This document shows positions 1,491-5,564 of a DNA stretch of 64,000 nt, in pieces. The DNA comes from Verrucomicrobiota bacterium (GTDB taxonomy: Bacteria; Verrucomicrobiota; Verrucomicrobiia; Opitutales; UBA953), in the NCBI GenBank assembly GCA_030830965.1, contig JAURLX010000019.1, positions 62,001-126,000 on the forward strand, read 5' to 3'. The position numbers and the translations under genes are program-made. The first letter of the stretch is position 1. Each line of letters begins with the position of its first letter. The notes under the pieces were generated by a model, which made no database searches, was not told the origin of the DNA, and saw only the letters and a list, made by a program, of their open reading frames with translations.

Positions 1491-2000
1491 TCAGCGGCCC
1501 GCGTCCCGCCCCTGCTGTGCGTCGTCTTTCTTCGGCGGATTGTTCGCGGCGATGAGCACGCCGGGAAATCCGTGCTTCCGTGCCATCGCGCAGACTTCCA
1601 TGAAATCCCTCATCATCAAAGCGCCATCCGCCTTGATGAGCACGGGGCGATGGTTCGCCCCGCCCGTCTTCTTCAGCCCCAGATGCTGGTCGAGCTCCTT
1701 GTAGCTCATCACCTGTCCGTCCGCGACGCATAGGCCGGTGCCGCGCGTGGAGATCAGCGTGACGGTGGCCGAAGTGAGGGCCATCTCCGTCGTCTTGACC
1801 GCCGGCACCTCCAGGGTGCGAAGCATGGCCGGGGACCGCGAGCCGTCGAAGCCGACGTACATCCCGGGGGCGTAGACGAAGTCCGAGGACAGGGCCCCGA
1901 CCAGAGCCGCGCAGACGATGGCCAGGGCCAGCGGCGCGGCGTCCACGCCCTGTCGGGCCGTGCGGACTCGCCGCAGGACGCCCAGAGGGGTCTCGATCAT
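1491..2000 (-). CDS. ExbD/TolR-like protein lacking the transmembrane Asp
   Basis: Predicted inner-membrane protein of 169 residues: a short cytoplasmic start, one transmembrane helix (about residues 22-38) and a periplasmic domain. That domain carries ExbD features, for example a VADGQVMSYKELDQ strand-helix and RPVLIKADGALMMRDFMEV. In ExbD and TolR the helix begins T-P-(F/L)-I-D and the Asp is the proton-binding residue. Here the stretch is AAPLALAI (residues 21-28) and the aligned position is Leu26, with no acidic residue inside the helix. It overlaps the exbB-like gene upstream by an ATGA junction, so the two surely act together. The fold assignment is good; a proton-driven motor role is doubtful. 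Confidence 0.75.
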   Translation of the reverse strand: MIETPLGVLRRVRTARQGVDAAPLALAIVCAALVGALSSDFVYAPGMYVGFDGSRSPAMLRTLEVPAVKTTEMALTSATVTLISTRGTGLCVADGQVMSYKELDQHLGLKKTGGANHRPVLIKADGALMMRDFMEVCAMARKHGFPGVLIAANNPPKKDDAQQGRDAGR

Positions 2001-2641
2001 GGCTTATCCGCCGCGCGTTCGGCCGGCAGTTCGTGCGTGACGAAGGTGTGCAGCGAATGGGAGGCGAACTCCATCTCCGTGACGATCGAGCGCACCCTGC
2101 CGACGAGGAAGTGATGCGCGAGCGAGCAGACGGCGGAGAGGGTGAGGGCGAAGCCGGCCACCGACAGCGCCTCCTGGGCGTGGACGAGCAGGTGCTCTCC
2201 CGAGGCGTAGATGCTGCCGTCGCGCATCGCGGTCACGAAATCGAAGCCGGCGAGGACGGCTCCGGCCAGGCCGATCAGGGGGGCGGACCGCCCGATCGAA
2301 GCGATGGTGCCGAGGCGTCTTTCCAGCACGGGAAGCTCGAGCAGGGCGGCCTCAATCGCCGCCGCCCTCATGGCATCGCCGCCCGTCTCCATCCGCAGGA
2401 GAGCGGCCTTCACCACGCGGGGCACGGGCCCGGGAGAGTCCTCGCAGGCCGCGAGCGCCTCAAGCGGCCGGCGCGCGCGCAGGTTGTTGCGCACGCCTTC
2501 GATGAAGTCCGACGAGAGCACGAGGCCGCGGTGGAGGAACATGGCGCGCTCGATGATGAAGACGACGGCGATGAAGGCCATCGGGATGAGGATCCACGCG
2601 AAGGGGCCCGCGTCCAAAGGGAAGGTGAATGCGACGGTCAT
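1997..2641 (-). CDS. MotA/TolQ/ExbB-family protein with altered channel residues
   Basis: Predicted inner-membrane protein of 214 residues with three transmembrane helices (about 13-30, 114-134 and 158-178) and the cytoplasmic loop typical of ExbB/TolQ between the first two. The block LERRLGTIAS, then APLIGLAG, then AQEAL aligns well with ExbB. The two conserved channel threonines (in G-T-V of helix 2 and A-T-A of helix 3 in Escherichia coli ExbB) are both Ala here (Ala128 and Ala162), and the conserved Pro of helix 3 is missing. It overlaps the 970-residue TPR gene and the exbD-like gene by ATGA junctions. Family membership is clear; coupling to proton flow is questionable. Confidence 0.8.
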   Translation of the reverse strand: MTVAFTFPLDAGPFAWILIPMAFIAVVFIIERAMFLHRGLVLSSDFIEGVRNNLRARRPLEALAACEDSPGPVPRVVKAALLRMETGGDAMRAAAIEAALLELPVLERRLGTIASIGRSAPLIGLAGAVLAGFDFVTAMRDGSIYASGEHLLVHAQEALSVAGFALTLSAVCSLAHHFLVGRVRSIVTEMEFASHSLHTFVTHELPAERAADKP

Positions 2642-5514
2642 CTCGGGGTCTTGGGATTGGACTGAGGTCCCTCGAGGGCGGCAAGTTTGCTTTCTGCCAG
2701 GGCGTGCCCCGGGAGCCTGGCCTCGGTGTCTTTCGCGCCCTGATTGAACTCCAGCAGGAGCCGGCAGGCGGCCGCGGCCTCCCTGCGGTCACCCGACTGC
2801 TCGCAGAGCTCGGCGAGCAGCAGCACAGAGCGGGAAATCCAGAGCCTCGCGGAGGAGGAGGACGCATCGCCGGGGCTGGAGCGAAGGGTCGCGCCATTGG
2901 CCACCAGCAGGGCCTTCGCCTCGGCGCTTGAAGCGGTCCTGTCGGAGCCGCTCTCGGCCTTGGACCTTTCCAGAAGCGCGAGGGCCTGCTTGTGCCGCGC
3001 CTCTAGGCGGATGTCCGGGGAATCCTTCCCCCAGGTGTCCGCCACCCGTTCGTAGGCCGCCGCCGCGCGGGAGGCGCGCTGGCGGTCCACCCTGTTGTCC
3101 TTCGTCCGCAGGGCGACGAGGCCGAGCAGCGTGTCGCCGCGGGCCAGCTCCGCCCGCGGTCGAGAGGGATCTGAAGGCATCTCGCGGATGAGGTCGTCGA
3201 GCAGACGCAGCGAGAGGTCGAACTCTCCGAGGGCGCGGAGCATCTCGGAGCGCCGCATCGCGGCATGGAAGGCCAGTGTGCCCTCGGCGCCTGATTCGGC
3301 GAAGCGTTCCAGCAGCACGACGGCCTCGCGCAGGCGGCCGTCGCCCTCCGACGGGTAGAGCAGGGCGGCCTGTTCGGCGGCCTCGTAGAGTCCGAGGCGT
3401 GAGAAGTGGCGCAGGTTGGGCACGTCCTTGAAGCCGTCGGCCAGCGCCGTGAAGGCGGCCTGGGCCTCGGCATGCCGGCCGGACCGGGAGAGTTCGCGGC
3501 CTTCAAAGAGATAGGAGGAGGCCGCGGCGGCGGTCTTCGGGTATTTCAGCCGAAGGTCCTTTATTTCCTCGCGACTACGCGCCGAGAGGGACTCCCCCTC
3601 GGCTCCGGTGAGGGCGCGGATCTTGAGCAGGGCGACCTGGCCGCGCAGCGAAGCGAGGTCGGCCAGCAGCTCTGGCGGCGCATCGGCGGGCAGCGACTCC
3701 AGCCGTTTCGAGATGCCATCGGCGATCTGCGCGGCCAGCGGACGTTGCGCAAGCGCCAGCGCGATAAGCGCGCGCTGCCATTCGAAGCGCAGCGTGAAGT
3801 CGACGCTCGCTCCCGTCAGCACGGGCTGGAGCCGCGCAAGGGTCCTGCCGGCCTCCCCGGCCTGTCCGGCGCGCCGGATTGTGTCGACCAGGTTCCATGC
3901 GGAGGACCATCTCGCCGGCGCCTCGACCACGGCGCGACCGCGCGCGGCATCCTCGATGACCTCGGTCGCGCGTTTCCAGAGCGCGGGGTCGTCGCCCTGG
4001 CGCAGGAGGCAGTGCACGCGCTGACGGAACGCGCTGGTCATGATGTCGGGCGCGGAAGTCTCGGCCTGCACGGAGGCGTAAGCCTTCTCGGCCAGCATGT
4101 AGTCGCTGGCGAGGAACAGGCAGTCGGCCGCGGCGGAGCGCAGCACGTCCCTGCGCATCGCCTGGGCGCCTTCGGCGAGGGCCGACAGGTGGGTCGCGGT
4201 GAGGCGGTACGCGCCCTCGCCCCAGGCGGACAGCGCCAGGACGCGCGTCGCCTCGCGGCTGAGCGGGGAGGCGGGCGCCTCCTTGAGCAGATCTTCCGCC
4301 GCCAGCCGTGCTTTCTCGAAATTACCCGCGTCCAGCATCAGCTGGGCCCTGGTCAGATGTATGGCGTCGAGGACCTCGGGGTTGCGGGGGCAGAGGTAGC
4401 CGTCGCCGGAAGACGCGGGCCGCATCAAGAAGTCGTAGGTCTCGTTGGCGATGCCGGCCGCCGCCGTCCGGTCGTCAGCGGGCGAGACGGCGGCGACCAG
4501 CGACCTCAGGGCCGTCACCCGGATCCTGAGGTCGGAAGGGTTGCGCGCCGCCTTCCGCAGGAAGTCCCGGGCGTCTTTGCGCAGGAAATCCCGTTCCTCC
4601 TTCGTCAGGTAGTCGCGCCCCTTCTTTTGGAAGATGTCCTTAATCTGTCTTTCGTCCTTGCCCTCCTTCCTGAGCACGGCGGCGTCCTGTTCGATCTGAC
4701 GGGCCTTCTGCTCGAGCATCAGGCCCGCCAGCAGGTCCGCCTCGGACTGACGTCCCGGGGGGAGCGGGGCGGCCGCGGAGAGCACTTTTACCCCCTCCTC
4801 GGCCTTGCCGATCCTGGAATAAGCGAGCGCAAGGTTCCGTGAGTAGGCAAAATGCAGCGGGGTGCCGCGGCTCGTGTCGGTGAGTTCGCGCAGGGCGACG
4901 ATCGAGTTCTTGAGATCCTCGTCCTCATGGTAGCGCACGAGGGCCAGCCCCCCCAGCGCCTCGATTCGGCCGCGTTGGTCCGTGGATGTCGCAGCCCGGA
5001 GGGCTTCCTCCCTGGCCGTGAGCGCCGCCGCCGTATCTTTGGCGGCTTCGGCCAGCATCCACCGCAGCGTCCACGCCCAGCTACGCTCCTGGGCTGGCAC
5101 GGAGTCGGGCGAGGCGGCTGCCGCATGGATTCGGGCGGCGGGGAGGTTGTTCTCCAGCGCGTCGAGGAGCCCCTCGCGCAACGCCTTGGCCGGGGAGGCC
5201 GGGATGAACGTCAGCGCGGCCCTGGCCTCCGCCATCCTTCCGCGCTCGATGAGGCCTGCCGTGAGGCCGAGCCCCGCCCGCTCGCGGTCCGGGGCTGAAA
5301 GAGCGGGGTCGGCCAAGGCCTGTCCGAAAAGCTCGGCCGCCGAGCCGGCGAGACCTGCGGCCAGGGCCTCTTCAGCCAGGTTGATGCGTGCACGGCGGGA
5401 GTGCAGGGGGGCGCCTCCGGAGCTCGGGTCGGCATCCAGGGCGGTCGGCGGGGTCTGCTGGCCCGCGCAACGCAGCGCAAGCAGCAGGAGGGCGACGAGG
5501 AGCGTCCGCGGCAT
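2638..5514 (-). CDS. Large secreted tetratricopeptide-repeat protein
   Basis: Protein of about 958 residues when started at the ATG at 5514; an upstream in-frame TTG at 5550 would put 12 extra charged residues before the signal peptide. The N-terminus is a typical export signal (PRTLLVALLLLALRCAG). The rest is almost entirely alpha-helical, Ala/Leu/Arg-rich, with repeated 30-40 residue helical pairs of TPR type, for example around SRNLALAYSRIGKAEEGVKVL and GRELSRSGRHAEAQAAF. There is no catalytic motif. It overlaps the exbB-like gene by ATGA, so it probably works in the periplasm with the ExbB/ExbD-like pair as a scaffold or load protein. Exact function is unknown. Confidence 0.75.
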   Translation of the reverse strand: MPRTLLVALLLLALRCAGQQTPPTALDADPSSGGAPLHSRRARINLAEEALAAGLAGSAAELFGQALADPALSAPDRERAGLGLTAGLIERGRMAEARAALTFIPASPAKALREGLLDALENNLPAARIHAAAASPDSVPAQERSWAWTLRWMLAEAAKDTAAALTAREEALRAATSTDQRGRIEALGGLALVRYHEDEDLKNSIVALRELTDTSRGTPLHFAYSRNLALAYSRIGKAEEGVKVLSAAAPLPPGRQSEADLLAGLMLEQKARQIEQDAAVLRKEGKDERQIKDIFQKKGRDYLTKEERDFLRKDARDFLRKAARNPSDLRIRVTALRSLVAAVSPADDRTAAAGIANETYDFLMRPASSGDGYLCPRNPEVLDAIHLTRAQLMLDAGNFEKARLAAEDLLKEAPASPLSREATRVLALSAWGEGAYRLTATHLSALAEGAQAMRRDVLRSAAADCLFLASDYMLAEKAYASVQAETSAPDIMTSAFRQRVHCLLRQGDDPALWKRATEVIEDAARGRAVVEAPARWSSAWNLVDTIRRAGQAGEAGRTLARLQPVLTGASVDFTLRFEWQRALIALALAQRPLAAQIADGISKRLESLPADAPPELLADLASLRGQVALLKIRALTGAEGESLSARSREEIKDLRLKYPKTAAAASSYLFEGRELSRSGRHAEAQAAFTALADGFKDVPNLRHFSRLGLYEAAEQAALLYPSEGDGRLREAVVLLERFAESGAEGTLAFHAAMRRSEMLRALGEFDLSLRLLDDLIREMPSDPSRPRAELARGDTLLGLVALRTKDNRVDRQRASRAAAAYERVADTWGKDSPDIRLEARHKQALALLERSKAESGSDRTASSAEAKALLVANGATLRSSPGDASSSSARLWISRSVLLLAELCEQSGDRREAAAACRLLLEFNQGAKDTEARLPGHALAESKLAALEGPQSNPKTPR

Positions 5515-5564
5515 CTCCCGCAAAGATGGCCGAACCCGGAGCGCGGGCAAGAAGCGAGTGCCTC

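Follow-up and report, generated by a model that had tools for sequence, protein, structure and literature searches.

The exbB and exbD genes in the 64,000-nucleotide stretch of DNA analysed here (the window) supply the motor core of TPR-ExbB-ExbD-TonB-like, a module that is ancient in Verrucomicrobiota, and the proteins that they encode lack the residues of the known proton path. We consider it reasonably probable that this pair belongs to a Ton-like complex that is without proton-gradient coupling and has been retained as a scaffold of the cell envelope, where it would play an unpowered structural role. To the wider proposal, that it is a naturally de-energised relative of the 5:2 rotary motors that has taken on a new task as a static scaffold across the envelope, the Asp of ExbD having been shed repeatedly across Verrucomicrobiota, we give about an even chance. 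The source genome is a 1.8 Mb assembly, 87% complete, from a freshwater member of Verrucomicrobiota, and its close relatives with named records are mostly uncultured Opitutae/Opitutales metagenome-assembled genomes. The features of the locus are listed in Table 1.

Table 1. Genes of the exbB-exbD locus, with positions in the window
Feature	Positions	Strand	Basis
TPR-rich secreted protein gene, first in module	2638-5550	minus	weak TPR profile matches
exbB (ExbB/TolQ-like protein, 214 aa)	1997-2641	minus	Pfam PF01618, alignments, AlphaFold2
exbD (ExbD/TolR-like protein, 169 aa)	1491-2000	minus	alignment, Foldseek, Pfam PF02472 below cut-off
uppS (undecaprenyl diphosphate synthase)	687-1448	minus	NCBIfam TIGR00055 above cut-off

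The TPR gene, exbB and exbD are joined by ATGA overlaps, with uppS following downstream and an aspartate kinase gene also among the neighbours of the pair. The true start of the TPR gene is probably at 5514, where the signal peptide MPRTLLVALLLLALRCAGQQ begins, and not at the mechanical TTG start at 5550. Its orthologs carry Sec-type signal peptides, as judged by eye, one of them has clear TPR domains, and the gene lies upstream of ExbB in most of the genomes compared.

The window ExbB is a member of the MotA_ExbB family, scoring 36.5 bits on PF01618 against a cut-off of 22.9, and its AlphaFold2 model shows the expected three-transmembrane (TM) fold with a pLDDT of 90 and finds its best matches in TolQ and ExbB (TM-score ~0.7). 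E. coli ExbB serves here as the ruler for comparing residues. On this ruler, Ala128 (bases 2258-2260) aligns with T148, Ala162 (bases 2156-2158) with T181 and Val171 with P190, while Ala22 and Val26 stand at S34 and W38, respectively. The register of TM2 and TM3 is agreed upon by alignments to E. coli ExbB, to relatives and to solved TolQ/ExbB chains, and the same register results when a profile built from 22 module ExbBs is matched to solved TolQ and ExbB. The alignments bear out the original prediction that both threonines are replaced by alanines in a pair that keeps its fold and its overlapping genes. The same prediction also pointed to the loss of the helix-3 Pro. That residue is indeed replaced, but its loss is not diagnostic, and we ruled it out as a marker of uncoupling because most Asp-bearing module relatives (60 of 66) are without the Pro as well; it is present in 19 of the 23 Asp-less relatives outside the window family. 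A separate observation concerns the end of TM3, where a motif, HHFLxGRVR (ExbB residues 176-184), is near-invariant in the subfamily, whether or not the members have the Asp; the motif is missing from E. coli ExbB.

The window ExbD has a single TM segment at about residues 21-43 and a periplasmic ExbD domain at 62-152. It scores 21.8 bits on PF02472, under the cut-off of 25.4 and over the periplasmic part of the profile only; the ExbDs of its nearest relatives score 26.8 and 27.5. Its AlphaFold2 model is less certain (pLDDT 66), and the periplasmic domain matches TolR/ExbD by Foldseek. Leu26 (bases 1923-1925) aligns with the proton-binding Asp25 of E. coli, just as had been predicted from the sequence, and no acidic residue occurs in the helix at any register, in any member of the genus that was read; the nearest acid is D20, six residues cytoplasm-ward of Leu26. 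Given such a divergent ExbD, with a Pfam score under the cut-off, the substitutions might be thought an artefact of alignment, with a true Asp or Thr elsewhere. We regard the chance of this as next to negligible, since more than 100 relatives, many of which retain the residues, align consistently, no shift of register brings an acid into the helix, and the profile match to solved TolQ/ExbB points the same way.

Both ExbB threonines and the ExbD Asp are missing from all readable pairs of the genus, and the loci read in the genus and its sister genus (L036-L079, L097) contain no Asp and no canonical Thr pair, with ExbD falling outside this read-out in L073 (not readable) and L077 (beyond the contig end). 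In the sister genus, remnants are seen as a Ser at the T148 position in L074 and a Thr at the T181 position in L076. Leu26 is invariant across an alignment of 15 ExbD sequences, and Leu is found at this site in all members of the genus that were read. Compared with the closest two relatives, ExbB gives a dN/dS of 0.08-0.09 and ExbD one of 0.25-0.36; the medians are 0.11 and 0.20, respectively. These figures are rough because synonymous sites are close to saturation. ExbB is under strong purifying selection and ExbD under only moderate constraint, and from this selection signal it follows that the proteins are in use. The combination of Ala, Ala and Leu is thus not unique to the window genome but conserved together through the genus in genes under purifying selection, as expected of a real subfamily, and the search for a substitute acid in the ExbD helix, which would have spoken against the original prediction, gave none. 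One may still ask whether the pair is a decaying remnant on its way to being lost. Change is indeed faster in the pore helices than in the ExbB cytoplasmic domain (pN/pS of 0.26 in TM2 and 0.28 in TM3 versus 0.10 in the cytoplasmic domain, the most constrained part), and the TonB-like gene no longer lies with the TPR, ExbB and ExbD genes. However, the pair persists in most of the family genomes sampled (ExbB was found in 35 of 37 genomes of the genus and ExbD in 71 of 79 of the family), ExbB has a dN/dS of about 0.1, and position 26 stays Leu throughout the genus members read, all of which make decay highly implausible.

Another explanation is that ions still drive the complex by way of different residues, with ExbD Asp20, the ExbB pair His176-His177 and a polar residue at ExbB position 134 as examples. 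The genus conserves Asp20 and the two histidines, and at position 134 the usual residue is D, H or N. However, many Asp-bearing relatives have such residues at the same sites, so that none of them, D20 included, represents a compensating gain. Moreover, Asp20 is missing from the sister genus and from L097, position 134 can be Asn, and the His pair sits toward the cytoplasmic end. An alternative ion path is therefore, in our judgement, very improbable. The suggestion that the complex might be differently energised likewise found no footing, with no conserved substitute site detected and no motor ATPase among the genes neighbouring the pair. As for the broader claim of a conversion to a non-proton complex, the residue losses, the purifying selection and the lack of a substitute acid in the ExbD helix all speak for it, but the part of the argument that rested on the Pro fails, and a static structural complex would be a further, inferred step.

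Besides this pair, the same genome has genes for four more ExbB and five more ExbD proteins, which have canonical residues wherever they could be read, namely Thr and Thr in ExbB and Asp in ExbD. At one of these loci (L003; G000 C12:133657-134506), two canonical ExbD genes in tandem, both with the Asp, lie behind one ExbB gene. These paralogs raise the possibility that the Asp-less ExbD, and ExbB with it, serve as pseudo-subunits that enter mixed motors with canonical paralogs and modulate or limit their activity, and the tandem ExbD pair is in keeping with this. Most Asp-less lineages outside the genus also keep both ExbB threonines, so that another ExbD could serve there. This reading is harder to sustain in the window genus, because the Thr ring of ExbB itself is gone; with both Thr and Ser34 missing, a proton path to any ExbD is not expected, and exbB and exbD remain adjacent and overlapping. 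We consider pseudo-subunits rather unlikely here, and return to the uncoupled scaffold.

How the proton-path residues were lost can be followed in a table of 124 genomes, in 117 of which the ExbD site is readable. Ion-driven 5:2 motors are regarded as unable to work without the Asp of ExbD, TolR and MotB, and a change of this residue to Asn mimics protonation. The Asp is retained in 66 of the 117 genomes. In family f14, Asn is found at this site in 19 of 22 genomes (L086, L163, L164, L166-L170, L177, L179, L181-L184, L188, L192, L194, L198 and L222), and the ExbBs of these Asn genomes mostly have both Thr and the helix-3 Pro. Throughout the window family (f1) the site is occupied by Thr, Ser, Asn, Gly, Leu or Ala, and single genomes of f13, f16, f21 and f25 have Asn or Ala. 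Placed on a tree of TPR and ExbB sequences, the Asp trait must have changed at least five times in the order, a count that is approximate since this FastTree tree, built with the trait columns removed, has some weak deep branches and does not give the direction of gain or loss. In other orders and classes, 8 of 19 module ExbDs are without the Asp. The loss of Asp is specific to the module, because the Asp is present in each of the 28 ExbDs outside the module that were read, which come from seven of these genomes. Both Thr/Ser positions of ExbB are intact in all 66 Asp-bearing genomes versus 33 of the 51 Asp-less ones, and loss of a Thr is seen only where the Asp is already gone. In the window family, the Asp has disappeared from all five genera, whereas the Thr pair is kept in two of them (g22 and g24), one Thr is gone in a third (g23), both are gone in the window genus (g1), and they are mostly gone in its sister genus (g25). 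The order of loss thus reads as stepwise, with the Asp apparently going first and the Thr residues later.

The module itself is widespread. Across the order, the gene block runs from the TPR gene through ExbB and ExbD to a fourth gene of about 250 aa. In a sample of 145 genomes from the whole phylum, 123 have ExbB relatives at E <=1e-25, and those checked are mostly followed by a TM-anchored gene of similar size. The window locus agrees with the module in gene order and in its orthologous components, except that in the window genus the TonB-like gene is unlinked. We considered whether this gene had been lost along with the proton residues and ruled this out, as it is still encoded at another locus; in the window family it is present in 73 of 79 genomes. 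In many relatives tuf follows the TonB-like gene, and in L232, a locus of the window genus, the TonB-like gene is still placed directly before a tuf-like (EF-Tu-like) gene, its ancestral neighbour, which suggests that TPR-ExbB-ExbD is probably the part that moved, to its place beside uppS in the window genus. In two loci of this genus (L232 3770-4510 and L231 4194-4934), the TonB-like gene directly follows a gene whose start resembles that of an HtrA-type protease. uppS adjoins the module in the window genus and its sister genus, and it lies outside the ancestral module, because other families of the order have the TonB-like gene after ExbD.

The product of the fourth gene has an N-terminal TM helix, and a Pfam search gave it no family name. 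When a profile of 40 such proteins was run against the full set of PDB sequences, with E values up to 10 allowed, it returned two matches only, both of them weak (E ~0.01) and both TonB C-terminal domains. In the structure of E. coli TonB-ExbBD, Ser34 and Trp38 of ExbB are contacted by Ser16 and His20 of TonB and in turn contact Pro190, and the TM His of TonB is essential (PMC12215075). In the source genome, the TonB-like protein has a Phe at the TM-His position, and with Ala22 and Val26 in ExbB the contact between the TM His and Ser34/Trp38 is missing. The TM-His is found in 42 of 61 Asp-bearing genomes versus 3 of 39 Asp-less ones. All 46 genomes with the TM-His have Ser at ExbB position 34, and 48 of the 55 without it carry another residue there; the Trp38 position is Trp in none of the tabulated genomes. 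When independent pairs are compared, Ser34 and His agree in 5.3 of 8 and are opposed in none (median p 0.06), while Asp and His give at most four such pairs, too few for significance. This co-occurrence matches the contact pair of E. coli and therefore ties the unlinked TonB-like gene to the module ExbB, and it supports, across genomes, the TonB-ExbB contact seen by cryo-EM. A strict co-loss of Asp and TonB His throughout the phylum was rejected: it holds in most of the order, is likewise broken by three genomes of the family, and fails outside the order in L284, L286, L289 and L294, which are Asp-less yet keep the TM-His, as judged by eye. Among these, L284, L286 and L294 retain both TM-His and Ser34, so Asp loss outside the order need not mean an uncoupled system.

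The window system is within the Ton/Tol architecture yet is without the ExbD TM Asp, the ExbB Thr ring and the TonB/TolA TM His that define a proton-driven member. With the Ton system (TonB-ExbB-ExbD) it shares the ExbB fold, the topology and periplasmic fold of ExbD, the adjacent genes and a TonB-like partner whose TM-His co-occurs with ExbB Ser34 in relatives, but the window lineage lacks all of the ExbD Asp, the ExbB Thr pair, the TonB His and ExbB Ser34, and its module has an extra secreted TPR gene and an unlinked TonB-like gene. The Tol-Pal system (TolQ-TolR-TolA) is accompanied by a TPR protein, CpoB, and the window system resembles it in having a TPR protein alongside and in that TolQ chains are the best Foldseek matches of its ExbB. 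It differs in that ExbB scores 21.1 bits on the TolQ equivalog model against a cut-off of 221, neither tolB nor pal lies beside the pair, and the coupling residues are missing. A further likeness is to the TPR-TolQ-TolR-TolR-vWA modules of the PVC bacteria, in which a Verrucomicrobiota TPR gene precedes TolQ-like and TolR-like genes (Mol Biol Evol 2025, PMC12204202). Window-type modules differ in having one ExbD and, in place of the vWA domain, a TonB-like C-terminal domain. The sections of the paper considered here stress the conserved Asp and Thr ring and do not describe their loss (PMC12204202). We found no report of Asp-less ExbD modules in the open-access literature, which leaves out most subscription journals.

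What would such a complex do? Its ExbD pore helix is without an acid, two ExbB ring positions are without Thr, the TonB-like partner is without its TM His and the ExbB serine that would contact it is gone. Given these losses, carriage of protons of the known type through the ExbB/ExbD pore would be impossible, and the TonB-like protein would receive no proton-driven movement. On the simplest reading, the ExbB pentamer and the ExbD dimer would still assemble, guided by the conserved cytoplasmic domain, but would have ceased to move. The assembly would then probably be an inner-membrane platform that keeps the periplasmic domains of ExbD and the TPR protein in fixed contact with periplasmic partners, putatively peptidoglycan or the outer membrane, so that a parked stator would serve for tethering or as a scaffold. 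The Asn-bearing family and the genus without any known coupling residue offer natural experiments on complexes without proton flow, and the same lineages could show how a motor becomes a structural element. Finally, in two genera of the window family (L104-L117 and L126-L142), ExbB and ExbD are encoded at separate loci, an arrangement that is unusual for a motor pair.
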